A stretch of DNA of 64,000 bases, from the NCBI RefSeq assembly GCF_011440375.1, contig NZ_JAAOIR010000002.1, positions 62,001 to 126,000 on the forward strand, given 5' to 3'. This DNA is from Halorubellus sp. JP-L1 (GTDB lineage: Archaea; Halobacteriota; Halobacteria; Halobacteriales; Natrialbaceae). Below are positions 27,377 through 63,151 of the stretch, in pieces (the first letter of the stretch is position 1; the number at the start of each line of letters is the position of its first letter). The position numbers were made by a program, and so were the translations under genes. The notes below the pieces were generated by a model that searched no databases, had not been told where the DNA came from, and saw only the letters and a list, made by a program, of their open reading frames with translations.

Positions 27377-30300
27377 CTACGTCGTCCGCAAGTGCTGTTT
27401 CTTGGGTTCGTACAGCTCGCCCTTCTGCTTCAACTTCTCTATCTCGTGCTCGGCCTTGCTCTCGTCCATCCCGATCTCGTCCGCCCGATCCATCACCACG
27501 TCCACGGGCGCCCCGTCGTCGTACTCCTCCTCGATGTCGCCGATCAACTGCTTGAGGTTCTTGATGCGGTCGCGCTGGGTCTTCGACTGCCCCGTCTCCA
27601 CCACGTCCGCGTCGAACTCCCCGGTCTCGGGGTCCACGCCGATGTCCTGCAGGCACGACCGCACGATGTCGATCACGCGCTCCGAGTCCGCCTCGTCGAC
27701 CGTATCCGACAACCGCACCCGCGCACTCGCCTCCGCCAACCGCACGATCGCCTCCAGCTGGCGCGCCGTCACCGGCACCGGCGAATCCTCGTCCTGTCCC
27801 TTCGACCGCAAGTCCACGTAGAAGTCCTCGATCGCCTGCCGCGCCTCGTCGGTCATCCGCGGATGACAGTTCTGCTTCGCGTACGCGATATACTTCCGCA
27901 TCAGCTCCGGATCGATGTCCGGGTCGACGTCCGCCGTCACGTCGTCGATCTCCTCGCTCGTCACGTCCACGTTCGTCATCTCCGTCCGCTGAGTCTCCAG
28001 CTCGCCCGCGTAGTTCGTGTTCAGGATGTGCTGGGCGAGGTTCCGGTCCTCCTCCTCGTCCGGCTGGTCCGTCACGGTGAAGATCAGGTCGAAGCGCGAA
28101 ATCAGCGCGGGCTCGAGGTCGATCTGCTCGCCGATCGGCTCGTACTGGTCGAACCGCCCGTACTTCGGGTTCGCCGCACCAAGCAGCGAACACCGCGACT
28201 TGAGGGTCGCGTTGATCCCCGCCTTCGACACCGAGATCTCCTGCTGCTCTAAGGCCTGGTGCATCGCCGACCGGTCGTCCGGCGCCATCTTGTCCAGCTC
28301 GTCCACCGCCGCAATCCCTCGGTCAGCTAATACGAGTGCACCGGCCTCCAGCGACCACTGCTGGCCGTCCCCGAAATCGTCGCGGACGGCGGCGGCCGTG
28401 TTGTGCGTGACGATGCCGTTCCCGACGAAGTTGTGCGTGTCGGGGACGGTGAGGTCGAACACTTCCTTCTCGCCGACGTCCTCGACGTCCGTGATGCGGT
28501 CCCACCGGAGGTCGGCTTCGACAGCTTCGCGGGTTGCGCGCTCTGCGTCGCCGACGTCGATGTCTTCGAGCATCGCTCGCGCTCGTTCTCGACTCGGGTT
28601 GTCGCCGCGCTCGACGTTCATGTGGTAGTCTCCCGCGACCGAACCGCCGTCGGCAGCGACGAGCACGTCACCGAGCGGCATCTTTTCGCCCCGACGCGTC
28701 GCGTCGTCGACGATCTCGTCGAGCGCCGCCTTCTTCTCCGAGATGGTGAACCCGATGGCGTCAGCGTAGCGCTCGATGTCCGAACCATACAGTTCGACGA
28801 AGTGCTGTACGTGCTTCGACCCGATCGTCTGCCCGTCCGCGAGTTCGTACGTGCCGCGACGGTCGCGTTCGCGGCGTCGCGCGCGAACGCCGTACGTTTC
28901 TAGCATCAACTGGACCTGTTCCGCGAGGGCCTTGCTGATGGTGGAGAGGAGGACGCTCGATCCGCCGTCGTCGCGAGCCGATACCGAGCCGTCGGCGTCC
29001 ATGAGTCCGCGGAGGAACGCGTCGGCGTGGGCCGCGGTCGTCAACTCGGGTGCGAGTTCGAGGTCGACCTTCGGCGTCTCCATCCCTGCGTTCGCGAAGA
29101 GGCGCGCTATCGTCGCACTGCACACGCGGATGCAGGGAACGCGGTCGTCTTGACGTTCGATCTCCGGGCGCTTGTCGAACTTCTCGTCGAAGATGTCTGC
29201 AGCACGCTCCAATAGGTCCTCGTCGCTGTTGGAGATGCGGACCATCCCTCGGTTCCCGTCCCGACGGTCCAGCGAGATGTCGCCGTCGCCGAACACGAGT
29301 CCGAGGAGGTACATGAGGTCCTCGTCGAACGTCGCCGGGACGGTGACGCTGTCGCCGTGACGGATCATGAGTCGGTCGAACGCGACGTCCTCGCGCGCCA
29401 TCTCGACCGCGTCGAGCATCGTCTCGAGCTTCTCGAGCGGAACATGACGGTTCCTGACCGAGTCGTAGACGAAGTCCTCGCTGAGTCCGAGTTCGGCCGC
29501 TGCCGCGCGGAGGTGACCGAACTCGTCGGCGAGTGCACTCCGCAGTCGCTCGACGGATTCGTCCGCGAGCTTCACCTTCTCCGAGGTCAGTTCGAGGAAC
29601 GCTCGGACTGGGACCTCGTTCCTGTCGAGGTCGTCGTACCGCGGGACGGCGACGTACTCTCCTGCCTCGATATCGGAGACCTGCGTCCACTCCAGTCCAT
29701 CGCGGCCGCACGTCAGAACGGGCGTGTTCACCGAGGCCTCTAGGGACTTCCCGTGCGCCGTCTCGACGCGTCGACACGGCTTCTCGGGCATCCGCCAGAC
29801 GTGCGACGACTCTCTCTCGACCATCTCCGTCGTGGTGTAGTCGAACGTCTGGAGTGGCACCGACTTCGGTGCGCTCGTGTCTTCGTCGACTGGCTTAGGG
29901 TGCTCGTCAATCGCGAGGTCTCGAACCCGTTGCAGCCCGGAAGATGTCTGTATTCTTGTGTCTCCAGTGACGCAAAGACCCGCAGAGCTGGAACCTTTAC
30001 CGGACGTATAGACGGACCGTGGTGCGACGTTCTTGATGTATGATAAGAGCTGCGACTTACCAGTACCCGGGTCGCCGATGAGGAGCATGTGGAGGTCGCC
30101 GCGGATGCGGGAGCCGTCGGGGAGGTGTTTGGTGACGCCGGAGAAGAGCTGGAGGATCATGGAGAGTTTCTCCTCGTCGTAGCCGTAGATGCTGGGGGCG
30201 ACGGAGGCGACCATCTTGTCGTAGATGTCTGGGTTGTTGGAGAGCTCGTAGATGGCTTCCTTGTCGGCGTCCGTGATCTCCATGTCCTCGAAGTCCTCTT

Positions 30301-31048
30301 CGTCGATGACGACGCTGACGCCGTCCATGTAGACGTCGAACACCGCGGACTTGTCCTGTTCGCTGCCCTGTTGTTCGAGGCGGAGGATGCCGGTGGCGGC
30401 GACGTGGTCGCCGGGGGTGACGTTCCCGGTGATGTCGTCCTCGATCTGGACGTCGATCGCCTGCGGTGTCTCGCCGCCCCGGAGGCCTTCGGGGGATTCC
30501 TGAACGCGGAGTTTCTGGGAGTCGACGAACTCGGACTGGTCGTAGTTGAGGCCGAAGGGACCCTGGCGTTCGCAGCCCTGGCACTCGTGGGGTTCCTGGA
30601 AGTCGCCGCCGGACTGGGGGATGCGGGTGAGGGTACCGCAGCGCTGGCACTCGAACGCCGCTTCCTGCATCTTCGGGCGGACGTCCGTCGCCTTGTTGAC
30701 GGTGCCGCGGACCGTGACGAGAGTGTTGACGTGGCGGGCGCGGATCTCCCGGATGTCCGTGGAGTCCGGGAGGGGGTCCATGCGGACGTGCGCCTGGCCG
30801 AGCTTGACGTCGACGGGGAGGTCGTAGAGGCGGAGGGCTTCTTCGGCGTACTTCTGGAGTTGCTCCGGTTGGTTCTCGTAGTCGTCGGCGAGATCGGGGT
30901 CGAAGCGGTAGAGGTCGTCGTAGTCGATGTACAGCGAGCGCTGGTCGGTGGGGTAGTTCTGCGCGAGCTTCCCGATTTCGTCGCGGTAGTACGTCCTGTA
31001 GAAGTCGAGGAACGCGTCGACGAGTTCGGAGTTGTCCCCTGCAGCCAT
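27377..31048 (-). CDS. mcm: Replicative DNA helicase MCM, interrupted by an intein
   Basis: 1223 residues; after removing a 525-residue intein the extein is 698 aa, the usual archaeal MCM length. Order: N-terminal domain A, OB fold with zinc-binding CQRCGTLTRIP...CQGC, AAA+ domain with Walker A GDPGTGKSQLLSY (about 329-341), Walker B ALVLADRGIAAVDELDKM after the intein, arginine-finger region LISRFDLIFTV, and a C-terminal winged helix. It forms the hexameric 3'-5' fork helicase. The start ATG overlaps the preceding VWA gene stop by 1 bp (TAATG), and the stop abuts the next ATG. Confidence 0.98.
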   Translation of the reverse strand: MAAGDNSELVDAFLDFYRTYYRDEIGKLAQNYPTDQRSLYIDYDDLYRFDPDLADDYENQPEQLQKYAEEALRLYDLPVDVKLGQAHVRMDPLPDSTDIREIRARHVNTLVTVRGTVNKATDVRPKMQEAAFECQRCGTLTRIPQSGGDFQEPHECQGCERQGPFGLNYDQSEFVDSQKLRVQESPEGLRGGETPQAIDVQIEDDITGNVTPGDHVAATGILRLEQQGSEQDKSAVFDVYMDGVSVVIDEEDFEDMEITDADKEAIYELSNNPDIYDKMVASVAPSIYGYDEEKLSMILQLFSGVTKHLPDGSRIRGDLHMLLIGDPGTGKSQLLSYIKNVAPRSVYTSGKGSSSAGLCVTGDTRIQTSSGLQRVRDLAIDEHPKPVDEDTSAPKSVPLQTFDYTTTEMVERESSHVWRMPEKPCRRVETAHGKSLEASVNTPVLTCGRDGLEWTQVSDIEAGEYVAVPRYDDLDRNEVPVRAFLELTSEKVKLADESVERLRSALADEFGHLRAAAAELGLSEDFVYDSVRNRHVPLEKLETMLDAVEMAREDVAFDRLMIRHGDSVTVPATFDEDLMYLLGLVFGDGDISLDRRDGNRGMVRISNSDEDLLERAADIFDEKFDKRPEIERQDDRVPCIRVCSATIARLFANAGMETPKVDLELAPELTTAAHADAFLRGLMDADGSVSARDDGGSSVLLSTISKALAEQVQLMLETYGVRARRRERDRRGTYELADGQTIGSKHVQHFVELYGSDIERYADAIGFTISEKKAALDEIVDDATRRGEKMPLGDVLVAADGGSVAGDYHMNVERGDNPSRERARAMLEDIDVGDAERATREAVEADLRWDRITDVEDVGEKEVFDLTVPDTHNFVGNGIVTHNTAAAVRDDFGDGQQWSLEAGALVLADRGIAAVDELDKMAPDDRSAMHQALEQQEISVSKAGINATLKSRCSLLGAANPKYGRFDQYEPIGEQIDLEPALISRFDLIFTVTDQPDEEEDRNLAQHILNTNYAGELETQRTEMTNVDVTSEEIDDVTADVDPDIDPELMRKYIAYAKQNCHPRMTDEARQAIEDFYVDLRSKGQDEDSPVPVTARQLEAIVRLAEASARVRLSDTVDEADSERVIDIVRSCLQDIGVDPETGEFDADVVETGQSKTQRDRIKNLKQLIGDIEEEYDDGAPVDVVMDRADEIGMDESKAEHEIEKLKQKGELYEPKKQHLRTT
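28400..29974 (-). other. MCM intein with LAGLIDADG homing endonuclease
   Basis: MCM residues 359-883. The splice start is Cys359 (SSSAGL|CVTGDTRIQTSSG). The end is VGNGIVTHN|T, so the +1 extein residue is Thr. Block B-like NTPVLT and block F-like VFDLTVPDTHNFVGNG are present, so self-splicing looks intact. Two DOD motifs, LLGLVFGDGDI and FLRGLMDADGSV, mark a complete LAGLIDADG endonuclease between them. The insertion lies in the AAA+ core between Walker A and Walker B, a usual site for MCM inteins. Confidence 0.96.
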
Positions 31049-34868: not shown

Positions 34869-35485
34869 GGCACTGTCTAGTTGAGCGATTTTGAGAAGCG
34901 AGGAAGTGATAGCGAGAGGTATACATGCAACTCGCAGACCTCCTCAGCGAAACGTTGGACGAGAGCCAATAAGACGTTTGGGAGAACGAGCGCACGCCGA
35001 CTCCCGTCCGGCGGTTCGGGGTGCGTCTCCATGGGCCAGGGCTGTCGATCAGGGAGACGGTTGCCATCCTGGAATTACTGGAGGTCCAACGCTCTCATGA
35101 CGCGGTCTGGCAGTAGGTACACCGGCTGGCCGACAGCGAGCCACAGCCGCCGACGGCGACGCCGTCGCGTGTCACCGTCGACGAGACCGCTATCCAAATC
35201 GGCACCGAATGGTACTAGCTGTCTGCGGCGATCGACCTTGATTCGCTGTATCTGCTGGATGTCGATGTATTCAGTCGTCACGGCACCGATCCAGAAGCGG
35301 GTTTCTGCAAAAACAATGGTTTCACACGTTCAAAATGCGGACTGCCTGCTTCCACACGAGTTGGGTTGGCAGTCTGCCGGCCGTCGCCGAATGGTGCCAG
35401 CAGTTCAAACGCTATTACAACTAGCATCGCCCAAATCAAGCGCTCGACGGCAACACGCCAGCCGAGGTGTGAACTATATAGTACC
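34869..35485 (+). mobile_element. Decayed IS6-family insertion sequence
   Basis: A left end ggcactgtctagttg (34869-34883) and a right end gaactatatagtacc (35471-35485) are imperfect inverted repeats (about 11 of 15 match). They frame a recognisable but broken IS6-type transposase reading frame. No target-site duplication is visible. It marks the left side of the A+T-rich island. Confidence 0.75.
34925..35472 (+). pseudogene. IS6-family transposase pseudogene
   Basis: Frame from ATG 34925 reads MQLADLLSETLDESQ, stop (34970), then DVWENERTPTPVRRFGVRLH, further in-frame stops after AVWQ and after IGTEWY, and the DDE-type segment VTVDETAIQIGTEWY and LLDVDVFSRHGTDPEAGF. An internal deletion with frameshift follows; the other frame continues KQWFHTFKMRTACFH and, after one more stop, HRPNQALDGNTPAEV and the terminal TGA. 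At least four nonsense changes plus the deletion make it non-functional. Confidence 0.88.
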
Positions 35486-35605: not shown

Positions 35606-37957
35606 ATGGAATTCGGCAGTACGCTCCAACGTCAAATTGTAAGTATCAGCGATTCTAATCCGGAATTTGAAGCTAGCAGAATTGCTGATAAAGCCGATTG
35701 TTCTATCTCATATGTTTACGATATCCAAAACAAGTATCAAGACTTAATTGAAGAGGCTGATTCTATTGGTCCCAACCGAATTGGATTGTCTCTACATCAC
35801 CCAAACAAACTATTCATAAGCGAGGATTTGTCTGAAGATCTAGAACTCAATCTTGAAGAGACTCAAGTCACAGAATTCCAAATGGAAAATGGTGGTACTG
35901 AATCAGCTATACACTACGCGAAGACTTTAATGAAGTCCGACTTTGAAGCCGAAACTGAGCTTAGGGAACTTGCTTCTGTGTTTGCGCAGCTCGGCAGTGT
36001 AGACGGTTATGAAATTGGTACTAATAGCCTCCAGGCCTATTTTTCTGCTGACAAGAATAAATCAGCATTTGATAAGGAACATTTTGAACAGTATCTCGAA
36101 GATATTCGTGAAGAGTATCTCTCGAGACTGGAAAAAGCAGATGCTATTCTCGGAGCTGAGATCGCTGAACATGTTTTTGACTTATCGGTTGATGGTGAAA
36201 GCATCAACACTGAACGATACTTGCTGTCGTCGAATACTGCAGAAGAGTTTCTGTCTGCTGATTCATTCTGGATCCGTGAACTTTCTTCATATGATGGTTC
36301 GATTGAATCGGACTCGGAAATGTATGCCACGATGTGTCGTTCTCTAACGAATCATAGAGGCAACGAAATTGATGAAATAAAAGAACAAATATCTAATACT
36401 CAGTACTTCGCTCATGGTAGAAGATATCATCTGGGATACCAAACAGGCGTCGAATTAACGGCAGTAACTTCGACGGATTCCCATCTAATAGAGGTCGATC
36501 CCGATGAGATTGAATTCTTAACGGTAAAAACTACAATAGCAAAATCACAGGAAAACATTTCCATTGAAGAACTGTATGAGGTTTTGGATGGATTTACAGC
36601 TATTTCAGAATCCACGGGTGAAGAATATACCGCATATGTGACTAAACATGACTCTGCAGAACAAATTAATCTCCATTTAGCACCTGTGACTGTTGATATT
36701 TCTCTGGGGGAAAATGGGGTTTTCATCAATTACCCAGATACCCAGATGGGCGCTGATTTGAAGGAGGGAATATTTGAAGACATCAATCAAGAATTCGACT
36801 TAACCGAAGTGGACACGACACAATTAGAAATCGAACCCCGGAGTATTCATGGTGATTGGGTCTTTGACACTAATTCTATCTACCATAATATGGGTGAGAT
36901 CCCATCTAGTAATCTGCTCAACACTATCCTCCCCAATCCTTTCTTTTTTGGACAGACTGTAAGAATCCCGTGGACGGTAATTTATGAAATTAATAAGCAT
37001 AAGGACTCGGGTGGCCCATCGTCTACAGTTCAAGATCAAGGTCTCGTTAATCTGGAGACGCTCTCACTATTACAGGAACATGGATTTCTTGAATTTGAAG
37101 TAGAAAATATACCAAACTCTATAGATAGCCAAATAAAAGAATCAGATGTTGCGGATATGCATATCTTACAATTTGTTCAAGAGTGTGATGGTACTCTTGT
37201 GAGTGGTGATAAACGGCTTAGGAAACTGGCTGAACTGGCAGGAGTGCGTATCTTAGAGATTGAAAACCACTCTGCTGCTTCGCAAGTTCCAGACAAAATG
37301 GAGGAGATCTCGGATAGTGTTTTCTCTGAATTGGGGGAACACGGTTCAACCAAGCAAGAAATTCTCTCTATCGTAGAGTCAGCAATCCAATCTAAGGATC
37401 AGCAATCAACAATCTCTGTAAAAGATGAACAACTTGAAGACCCAGAAGCCTACCTCACGAGACTACTAGATAAGAAAGAACTCCTCCCAGTCCCTGCTTC
37501 GAATGATGAACTAACTTATAAACAATGTGGCGAGGTAGATGTAGTGGTCACGCCCAGTGCAGCGAAACAGATTAGCGATAATATCGTAAACGAGGGTGGT
37601 GATAAATACCTGCCAGAGAAAATTATCCATTCGATTGTTAAGAAAGTCGGAGACACCAATTATGACTTAGCGCATCTAAATTTTCACGCTCCTTTATCTT
37701 ACGTAATTGCGTTTCAATCGACTAGTATGGGTGGACTTAGTACTGAAGCTCGACAATTCTATAGATTGGGGAACTTAGAAAATGCTAGCTATACTACAGT
37801 TGAGGTAGAAGACAGCACTACGAGAGATGAAGAAATACACGACGCAGTTCTCGTTGCAAGAGAAAAAGAATACCCGGTTCTATGTACCGGTTTAGACCAT
37901 ACTCTTCAGCGAGTTGGTGGCCTACTGAATGTAAACGTTTGCGAATACGATAATTAA
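35606..37957 (+). CDS. Orphan multidomain PIN-nuclease protein on A+T-rich island
   Basis: 783 residues from ATG 35606; base composition is about 40% GC by eye against about 70% around it. Residues 14-50 look like a helix-turn-helix (FEASRIADKADCSISYVYDI). Residues 55-410 match nothing I know (mixed helical, then beta-rich). Residues about 415-555 form a PIN domain with all acidic positions: Asp421 (VFDTNSIY), Glu461 (TVIYEINKHK), Asp514/Asp517 (ESDVADMHIL) and Asp535 (TLVSGDKRLR). After an acidic linker, residues about 650-783 look like a second, degenerate PIN-like unit (VDVVVTPSAAKQISDNI ... HDAVLVAREKEYPVLCTGLD). Predicted cytoplasmic metal-dependent RNase. No antitoxin-like small gene lies beside it. 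The role is unknown. Confidence 0.85.
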   Translation: MEFGSTLQRQIVSISDSNPEFEASRIADKADCSISYVYDIQNKYQDLIEEADSIGPNRIGLSLHHPNKLFISEDLSEDLELNLEETQVTEFQMENGGTESAIHYAKTLMKSDFEAETELRELASVFAQLGSVDGYEIGTNSLQAYFSADKNKSAFDKEHFEQYLEDIREEYLSRLEKADAILGAEIAEHVFDLSVDGESINTERYLLSSNTAEEFLSADSFWIRELSSYDGSIESDSEMYATMCRSLTNHRGNEIDEIKEQISNTQYFAHGRRYHLGYQTGVELTAVTSTDSHLIEVDPDEIEFLTVKTTIAKSQENISIEELYEVLDGFTAISESTGEEYTAYVTKHDSAEQINLHLAPVTVDISLGENGVFINYPDTQMGADLKEGIFEDINQEFDLTEVDTTQLEIEPRSIHGDWVFDTNSIYHNMGEIPSSNLLNTILPNPFFFGQTVRIPWTVIYEINKHKDSGGPSSTVQDQGLVNLETLSLLQEHGFLEFEVENIPNSIDSQIKESDVADMHILQFVQECDGTLVSGDKRLRKLAELAGVRILEIENHSAASQVPDKMEEISDSVFSELGEHGSTKQEILSIVESAIQSKDQQSTISVKDEQLEDPEAYLTRLLDKKELLPVPASNDELTYKQCGEVDVVVTPSAAKQISDNIVNEGGDKYLPEKIIHSIVKKVGDTNYDLAHLNFHAPLSYVIAFQSTSMGGLSTEARQFYRLGNLENASYTTVEVEDSTTRDEEIHDAVLVAREKEYPVLCTGLDHTLQRVGGLLNVNVCEYDN

Positions 37958-38003: not shown

Positions 38004-38600
38004 TCAAAATCTGGTGGGAGGGGGTCGAGCTCTGGATTGCTCCGACTTTTTGCTTCCATATCTGTGATTATAGTCGCGTATTTCATAAATCCCTTGGCTC
38101 ACAACCAAAATCGATAATCGATAGGATTGAACGATGATTCTAAAAATTCTTGCTGGAATGAGCTGGGATTTCTGCATTTTTGCTTCTGACATCGAGTCAC
38201 TTATGTTCTCCTCACTTGGTGCAGCTAAATATGGCTCAATCGCATTGTTGGCGCTCCATCCGCCGAGTGCCATGACGATCCGTGGACTGAGGTTCTTCTG
38301 GATGAGGAGGTAGTTCGCTCAGCAGCGGCGGAAATCATGCGTACTCACTCGTCGGTAGTCCTTGTTGCCGGTCTCGCTGACCGCGCCCTCGGCGGCCTGT
38401 TCGATCCAGTACTGGACGATTTGCTTGTCCTTGTCGACAAGTGGGTCATCGTCCACGTTGTGCTGTTGGCAGTAGCGGCTCACCAGTGCCTTCAGCTCGC
38501 GTGGGAGCTACGTCTCGCGGTGTTTCCCGCTGTGGTACTCGCCCGTAGTGTCCTTCTCAGCGATGACCTCCAATATCACGAAAATGGACGTCACAGTATC
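38004..38600 (-). pseudogene. Tyrosine recombinase (integrase) pseudogene, C-terminal half
   Basis: The minus strand reads VTSIFVILEVIAEKDTTGEY, then GKHRET, stop (38508-38510), LPRELKALVSRYCQQ, and RRVSTHDFRRC, stop (38319-38321, TGG to TGA likely), ANYLLIQKNLSPRIVMALGG and WSANNAIEPYLAAPSEENIS. The catalytic box II His/Arg (HDFRR), the GGW position and the nucleophile Tyr (IEPYL) are recognisable as a haloarchaeal phage-type integrase. The N-terminal half is missing, and residues after the Tyr helix look like read-through. The remnant ends about 25 bp from the tRNA-Pro 3' end. Stretch 37958-38003 holds nothing recognisable. Confidence 0.88.
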
Positions 38601-38623
38601 CAATTACTCATTCCGGAAGAAGT

Positions 38624-38695
38624 GGGCTGGGCCAGATTTGAACTGGCGTCACAGGCTCCCAGGGCCCGAAGTATACCAGGCTAACCCACCAGCCC
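38624..38695 (-). tRNA. tRNA-Pro (anticodon probably UGG)
   Basis: The 72-nt minus-strand sequence folds as a cloverleaf: acceptor gggctgg/ccagccc, anticodon stem cgggc/gcctg around loop cctggga, and T arm gccag-ttcaaat-ctggc. The seven-base loop puts tgg at positions 34-36, that is Pro. Position 33 would be C instead of the usual U, which lowers certainty on the exact anticodon. CCA is not encoded and no intron is seen. The 3' end faces the island and the integrase remnant, the usual geometry of a tRNA attachment site. Confidence 0.88.
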
Positions 38696-61912: not shown

Positions 61913-63151
61913 TTACTTCATTCCCGGCGAGTCCGGGCGACCGGAGCCGTCGAAGCCGGGCGACCCCGCCCGACCGCGGTCCTTGTGGAGGAACACGAGG
62001 CCGCCGCCGATGTCGGCGCCGACGGTGAAGCTACGGGCGGCCTCCGCGCCCCAGAACGACGTGTCGTCGGTGTGGTAGCCGGAAATCGTCTCGGGATTCG
62101 ACGGGTCGGTGACGTCGTGGACCGTCACGCCGCCGTCGTACCACGACGCGTGCAGGCGGTTCGCGGTGACGTCGAAGTTGTGCGACGTGCGGAACCCGTC
62201 GACGTCCGGCGGGTCGATCCGCGCGAGTTCCTGCGGGTCGTCGTAGTCCGAGACGTCGAAGATCTTGATACCGCCGTAGTCGTCGTTGTCCGGGTTCTCG
62301 ACGAAGTTACCGGGGAACGTCTCTGCGCCGACGTACACCAGGTCGCCGCCGGGCGACGGCTGGACGTAGTGCGCGTTCCCGGGTGCCGTGAGATAGCGTT
62401 CGGCCGTGTAGCCGTCGGCGTCCGCCCCGGGGGCCTCCCCGAACTGCGTAACTAGCTGCGGGTCGGTGGGGTCGCTCACGTCGGCGACGACCGTCCCGGC
62501 GTCCCAGAACGCCTGGTAGAGCAGGTCGTCCTGCACGTAGACGTCGTGGCAGGGGTTGACGCCGCCCGTGGCGAACTCGGGGAAGTCGTCCTTGAGCCGG
62601 TACTCGCCGACGACCTCCGGGTCGCTGGGGTCGTTCACGTCGACGATGGTCGTTCGCGCTTCGCTGAACGCGGCGTCGCCGGACTCGTTGACCGTGAGGT
62701 ACGCGTAGCCGTCCGCGAGGAAGTTGTTGTGGATGTGGTGGCCGACGTCCACGAACCCGATCTCGGTCGGGTCGGTGGGGTCGCTCACGTCGACGAGCGT
62801 GATGCCCGGGCCGCCGTTGCTCGCGAGACTGACGAGGTCGCCCTCGACTTTTGCGTCGAGGATGCCTCCCGCGGGGGCGTCGGCGGTCATCGACCCGACG
62901 AGTTCGGGCCGGTTCGGGTTCTGCCAGTCGACGACGCCGAGACCGTCGCCGGTCGCGACGTACGCGTACGTCCCCTGCGTGGAGACCTCTGCAGTGCCGC
63001 CGACGGCGACCTCGCTGAAGAGACGGAGGGAGTCGTCCGTCCCGCGGCCGTTGCCGTTCCCTGGCGGACTGGCGCTCCCGACGCCCGCGACTCCGGCAAG
63101 ACCGAGCGCGCCAGTCGCCTTCAGGAACTCGCGTCTCTCGGGCAGCCGCAT
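61913..63151 (-). CDS. Tat-exported LVIVD-repeat beta-propeller protein (2)
   Basis: 412 residues from the ATG at 63149-63151 (MRLPERREFLKATGALGLAG). Tat leader ERREFLKATGALG. The LVIVD repeats and the GNAHYVQPSPGGDLVYVGAE and TSHNFDVTANRLHASWYDGG segments are collinear with protein 1, and both mature parts begin with ASPPGNGN and DDxLRLFSEVAV, so the pair arose by tandem duplication. It lies 55 bp upstream of protein 1 and starts 2 bp after the stop of protein 3. Confidence 0.9.
   Translation of the reverse strand: MRLPERREFLKATGALGLAGVAGVGSASPPGNGNGRGTDDSLRLFSEVAVGGTAEVSTQGTYAYVATGDGLGVVDWQNPNRPELVGSMTADAPAGGILDAKVEGDLVSLASNGGPGITLVDVSDPTDPTEIGFVDVGHHIHNNFLADGYAYLTVNESGDAAFSEARTTIVDVNDPSDPEVVGEYRLKDDFPEFATGGVNPCHDVYVQDDLLYQAFWDAGTVVADVSDPTDPQLVTQFGEAPGADADGYTAERYLTAPGNAHYVQPSPGGDLVYVGAETFPGNFVENPDNDDYGGIKIFDVSDYDDPQELARIDPPDVDGFRTSHNFDVTANRLHASWYDGGVTVHDVTDPSNPETISGYHTDDTSFWGAEAARSFTVGADIGGGLVFLHKDRGRAGSPGFDGSGRPDSPGMK

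Follow-up and report, generated by a model that had tools for sequence, protein, structure and literature searches.

An intact gene for an HTH-PIN-PIN-like protein in a haloarchaeal mobile-element scar: a candidate single-gene RNase effector

In the 64,000 bp stretch of the Halorubellus sp. JP-L1 genome analysed here (the window; positions 62,001–126,000 of contig NZ_JAAOIR010000002.1), one long gene has stayed open between mobile-element genes that are broken. This raises the question of what the gene encodes, and whether its product serves the host, the element that carried it or nothing at all.

An open gene in an element scar beside tRNA-Pro

The gene (35606–37957, + strand) starts with ATG, has no internal stop codons and encodes a 783 aa protein, in which an N-terminal helix-turn-helix (HTH), a middle region, a PIN domain, a linker and a degenerate, dead PIN follow one another. 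A frame of 783 codons is not expected by chance: when the AT-rich stretch was simulated 500 times with a Markov model, the longest ORF reached 222 codons at most (median 87). The GC content of the gene is 41%, compared with 69% for the haloarchaeal chromosome, and across 35.5–38 kb GC drops sharply from about 0.69 to 0.40, with surroundings at 0.65–0.70. A preliminary description of the locus as an uninterrupted 2.35 kb gene of foreign composition is therefore borne out on both counts, as is its account of decayed mobile-element genes on either side. To the left is a broken transposase gene (34925–35293, + strand) that contains in-frame stops and is 40% identical to a transposase-like frame in another locus, L051. 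To the right, a tyrosine integrase gene survives as a C-terminal remnant (approximately 38172–38507, − strand), with one in-frame stop inside it and a second just upstream, which matches positions 101–168 of the Pfam Phage_integrase profile with an E value of 8e-5, below the curated cut-off. A specific kinship between this remnant and the integrases found near two of the homologues described below was rejected on comparison.

The integrase remnant is followed by a tRNA-Pro (TGG) gene (38622–38695, − strand). In a sister genome, G239, both flanks are kept, with a histidine kinase gene on one side and tRNA-Pro and a transporter gene on the other, and the segment that includes the 35606–37957 gene is absent. 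Homology to G239 restarts at window position 38614, eight bases past the 3′ end of tRNA-Pro. As the integrase and transposase genes are broken, a tRNA-Pro gene lies alongside and the segment is missing from G239, we conclude that the 35606–37957 gene is cargo left in an element scar, and that the element carrying it probably integrated at tRNA-Pro. The left border of the island was searched for a direct repeat matching the 3′ end of tRNA-Pro, with none found, so the left end is not fixed by an att copy. The site beside tRNA-Pro is variable, as G239 holds other genes there. One resembles a metallo-beta-lactamase gene and the other is small, at 97 aa (identified by eye; L062 3849–5818); they take the place of the AT-rich island between the histidine kinase gene and tRNA-Pro. 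Elsewhere in the window, the MCM helicase gene (27377–31048, − strand) has a long in-frame insertion that resembles an intein, and the MCM of G239 (L062 10231–13743) is comparably long at 1170 aa.

Domain architecture of the 783 aa protein

The first PIN domain, PIN1, spans residues 412–556 (36839–37273, + strand). When the whole protein was searched against Pfam, nothing was convincing besides PIN_4, which matched residues 418–549 (E 2.4e-6; 28.3 bits against a curated cut-off of 21.9). With a profile match above cut-off and conserved acidic active-site residues, PIN1 belongs to the PIN superfamily. The four acidic residues D421, E461, D517 and D535 are unchanged in all six members of the family identified here; D514, which had also been put forward as part of the acidic set, is His in one homologue. 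Also invariant in 6/6 are T422, N423, Y426, H427, P455 and W456, and further along N463, K464, H465, D467, A516 and M518. Conservation is highest in PIN1 (38.6% mean identity) and lowest in the middle region and linker (21–23%). A nuclease site that is fixed amid fast-diverging surroundings is what would be expected of a conflict effector, though it is not proof of one. Structure prediction had been named as a check for PIN folds, and when residues 408–783 were folded alone the low-confidence model returned the PIN domain 3i8o as its top Foldseek match (E 3.3e-4), followed by the PIN domains of SMG6 and AF0591. Mean pLDDT was 46.6 for the whole-protein model and 47.9 for that of residues 408–783 (four sequences as input), and interpretable structural matches of these models were confined to the PIN1 and HTH parts. 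From its superfamily, PIN1 is predicted to cut RNA.

The identity of the second unit, PIN2 (residues 632–783; 37499–37954, + strand), rests on a profile comparison and on the order of secondary structure elements. Comparison of the PIN1 and PIN2 profiles gave an hhalign score of 27.5, against no more than 15.1 in 100 column shuffles, with a probability of 45% that would be insufficient by itself to prove the relationship, and the order of strands and helices is the same in both in the low-confidence model. The position of the first catalytic Asp is occupied by Thr or Ser in 6/6 homologues; the Glu is kept in one member and replaced by Ala in four and by Arg in another. Because the catalytic Asp is replaced in all six and the Glu in five, in a segment with a PIN1-like profile and strand order, we refer to PIN2 as a dead PIN. 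The preliminary description had recognized a PIN-like segment at the C-terminus but made it too short and took it to lack its first strand. A first-strand segment (VDVVVTPSA, approximately residues 644–652; modelled strand 645–648) is present, and the real loss is of the catalytic Asp and, in most members, the Glu.

Residues 1–55 (35606–35770, + strand) resemble an HTH of the Lrp/AsnC type, in keeping with the HTH-like N-terminus first described. The model is at its most confident in residues 3–54 (pLDDT 67–85), which match Lrp-type HTHs with VIA-align Z scores of 5–6.6, where values below 8 are not decisive; a Pfam search with residues 1–55 alone returned no match. Matches to the first 50 positions of the family profile also include many small HTH proteins of haloarchaea. 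One small HTH protein akin to the family N-terminus (L015 9035–9987) is followed directly by a gene that resembles an Mrr-type restriction endonuclease (by eye), which suggests that the HTH of the family is a reused module. The middle region, residues 56–411 (35771–36838, + strand), is fast-evolving (21.7–22.8% mean pairwise identity) and of unknown fold, with no family match in profile searches. A likeness of residues 262–412 to TBP repeats, an idea that arose from predicted secondary structure, scored 7.1 in hhalign, against a maximum of 11.5 in 40 column shuffles. In the model and alignment, residues 557–631 (37274–37498, + strand) are a variable helical linker. Sequence, profile comparison and the low-confidence models thus agree on the order originally proposed: HTH, unknown middle, active-looking PIN and degenerate second PIN.

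Homologues and their neighbourhoods

A search of 391 Halobacteria genomes and members of three families identified six full-length members, namely the window protein and those of Natrinema altunense AJ2, which is in the same taxonomic family as the host of the haloarchaeal window, Halomarina oriensis, Haloferax sulfurifontis and the genomes G334 and G438. Many further short haloarchaeal matches to the profile were HTH-only and were excluded from the count. The window protein is 22–32% identical to its five homologues, and pairwise identities among all six are 21.5–37.9%. The term orphan, used previously, thus suits the locus but not the protein. The family is rare in Halobacteria and each member is found in a different setting. 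There was no further member in 375 sampled genomes of the phylum, and no homologue in viral contigs or in phage and plasmid collections. In all six hosts the GC content of the gene is below that of its flanks. PIN proteins of 807–809 aa from G317 and G273 resemble the window protein in length and in the position of the PIN domain, and the PIN domains are related (hhalign probability 93.6%), but these proteins were rejected as family members as they have no significant local similarity to it outside that domain. They form a second family of PIN proteins (L013 8448–10871 and L014 9201–11630; 59% mutual identity), and one of the two genes is near QatC-like and Avs1b-like genes.

Inspection of the predicted genes revealed no partner gene conserved across the six loci. 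In G438, the homologue lies between BrxC and PglX, on the opposite strand, within a complete-looking BREX cluster. Matches to PADLOC models in this cluster are BrxA, BrxC, BrxB, BrxC, PglX, PglZ and BrxHII, a composition that we take to be that of type 5 BREX, and the 104 kb contig that carries it also includes an Orc/Cdc6 gene and a ParA-like gene (the latter by eye). Also in this cluster, a 181 aa gene (L050 3317–3862) that lies between PglX and PglZ had no PADLOC or Pfam match. In Haloferax sulfurifontis, the homologue is found in a defence island between an McrBC-like pair and a DUF1156 methylase (HmaB-like) with a TmtA-like HNH protein, and a DSR1-like fragment is further upstream. In G334, it is approximately 1 kb from a PDC-S27 ATPase, a candidate defence gene. 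No defence genes were recognized beside the gene in the remaining three loci, those of the window, Natrinema and Halomarina. The Halomarina homologue adjoins a tyrosine integrase gene and that of Natrinema follows small winged-helix genes, and small HTH genes are neighbours in both. The single-gene accessory or defence role suggested at the outset accordingly gains from the settings of three homologues and from the lack of a conserved partner, but not from the other three loci, and the argument from context draws on these six neighbourhoods by themselves. Just one of the six members (G438) is encoded with BREX core genes, and the window copy is not a BREX component. As the window's host has no PglZ, the protein cannot depend on BREX in that host.

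Known systems and possible roles

PIN domains also work in ordinary RNA processing. The catalytic residues of VapC toxins are like those of PIN1, but VapC is a single domain of 130–150 aa with a separate VapB antitoxin, whereas the window protein has 783 aa and two PIN-like units, and no gene for a VapB-type antitoxin is found next to the window copy or is common to the six loci. The contrast with VapC in size and domain order that had been drawn earlier is therefore upheld. None of the six members matched a PADLOC-DB 2.0.0 profile, candidate systems included, at E values up to 10. The closest parallels are in the literature. DS-3, predicted by DefensePredictor, is a validated one-protein defence system with a split PIN (PMC13092281); like the window protein it is a single protein with a PIN nuclease, no antitoxin and proposed auto-inhibition. 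As described, however, DS-3 has one PIN split between the two ends of the protein (PMC13092281), and this sets it apart from the window protein, which has an N-terminal HTH and a contiguous PIN1 followed by a dead PIN. PIN endoribonucleases are reported to be uncommon auxiliary effectors in BREX loci (PMC12839542), and are PIN nucleases inside a BREX locus as the G438 homologue is; the HTH-PIN-PIN architecture seems to be absent from that account, and five of the six members here are outside BREX. PDC-S70 is a mostly archaeal single-gene candidate with a PIN (PMC12988326), and so is like the window gene in being a single archaeal gene for a PIN nuclease. It is set apart by the 0/6 matches to PADLOC-DB, which may not include a PDC-S70 model. 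Hence, the general kind is known, and the HTH-PIN-PIN architecture and the family appear to be undescribed in the libraries and open-access literature searched.

We put it at about an even chance that the gene, one that circulates in a haloarchaeal low-GC pool of mobile and defence genes, codes for a PIN endoribonuclease that is self-contained, normally kept inactive and most likely active against viruses as a backup or an abortive effector. A stand-alone antiviral effector is suggested because two or three of the five relatives are among defence genes, one of them in BREX. The observations that support it are the identity of the domains, the conserved active site, the degeneracy of PIN2, the sparse distribution, the homologue contexts, the lack of a conserved partner gene, the low GC of every copy relative to its flanks and the published PIN effectors of BREX loci and DS-3. 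What weighs against it is the small size of the family (six members), three of them with no recognized defence neighbours, together with the lack of PADLOC matches, the low confidence of the structure models and the use of PIN domains in ordinary RNA processing. PIN is also the fold of VapC toxins, and the gene might instead be a one-gene toxin-antitoxin module, in which PIN1 supplies the toxin, repressor and antitoxin are built in as the HTH and dead PIN, and the whole is kept because it stabilizes an integrated element or plasmid. Integrase genes adjoin the window and Halomarina copies, and the Orc/Cdc6 and ParA-like genes on the G438 contig would also fit. However, the protein far exceeds VapC in length, no antitoxin gene accompanies it, and defence accounts better for a position inside BREX and among restriction genes. 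The two roles do overlap, and we consider an addiction module of this kind unlikely.

Somewhat less probable still is a role in the mobile element's own regulation or RNA processing, as an HTH-directed nuclease that acts on the element's transcripts or on competing elements and not in host defence. The combination of an HTH and a nuclease in one protein, the association with integrases and the small HTH genes near two homologues are consistent with this, but viral contigs, phages and plasmids lack homologues and the six loci share no element genes. Finally, the window copy may be a functionless gene that was stranded too recently to have decayed, given that every neighbour in the island is broken and no defence partner is nearby, and the closest homologue, at 32% identity, is too distant for dN/dS. 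Yet no stop interrupts the 783 codons of the window copy, and it retains every residue that does not vary among the other homologues, so that this seems improbable.

If the protein is an antiviral effector, the HTH may bind nucleic acid, either its own promoter or invading DNA, and the middle region, the dead PIN or both may restrain the enzyme and react to infection. PIN1 would then cleave RNA via a divalent-metal site formed by its four invariant acidic residues. Autoinhibition is proposed because an active PIN RNase with no antitoxin would otherwise be toxic; we infer the trigger and the antiviral outcome of this putative effector. The dead PIN might be a structural or inhibitory partner of PIN1, with the two paired within one chain in place of the VapC homodimer. 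More tentatively, and with the balance against it, the protein could be a one-gene archaeal immune effector in which the active and dead PINs form an intramolecular pseudo-dimer and infection is sensed via the HTH or middle region, acting on its own or stepping in when BREX or restriction is blocked. The catalogue of immune effectors in archaea is a poor one. If this proposal is correct, the family would represent an RNase effector that is encoded by one gene and carries its own dead twin, which is an unusual antitoxin-free way to restrain a PIN nuclease, and would provide a concrete candidate for a backup effector within an archaeal BREX cluster.
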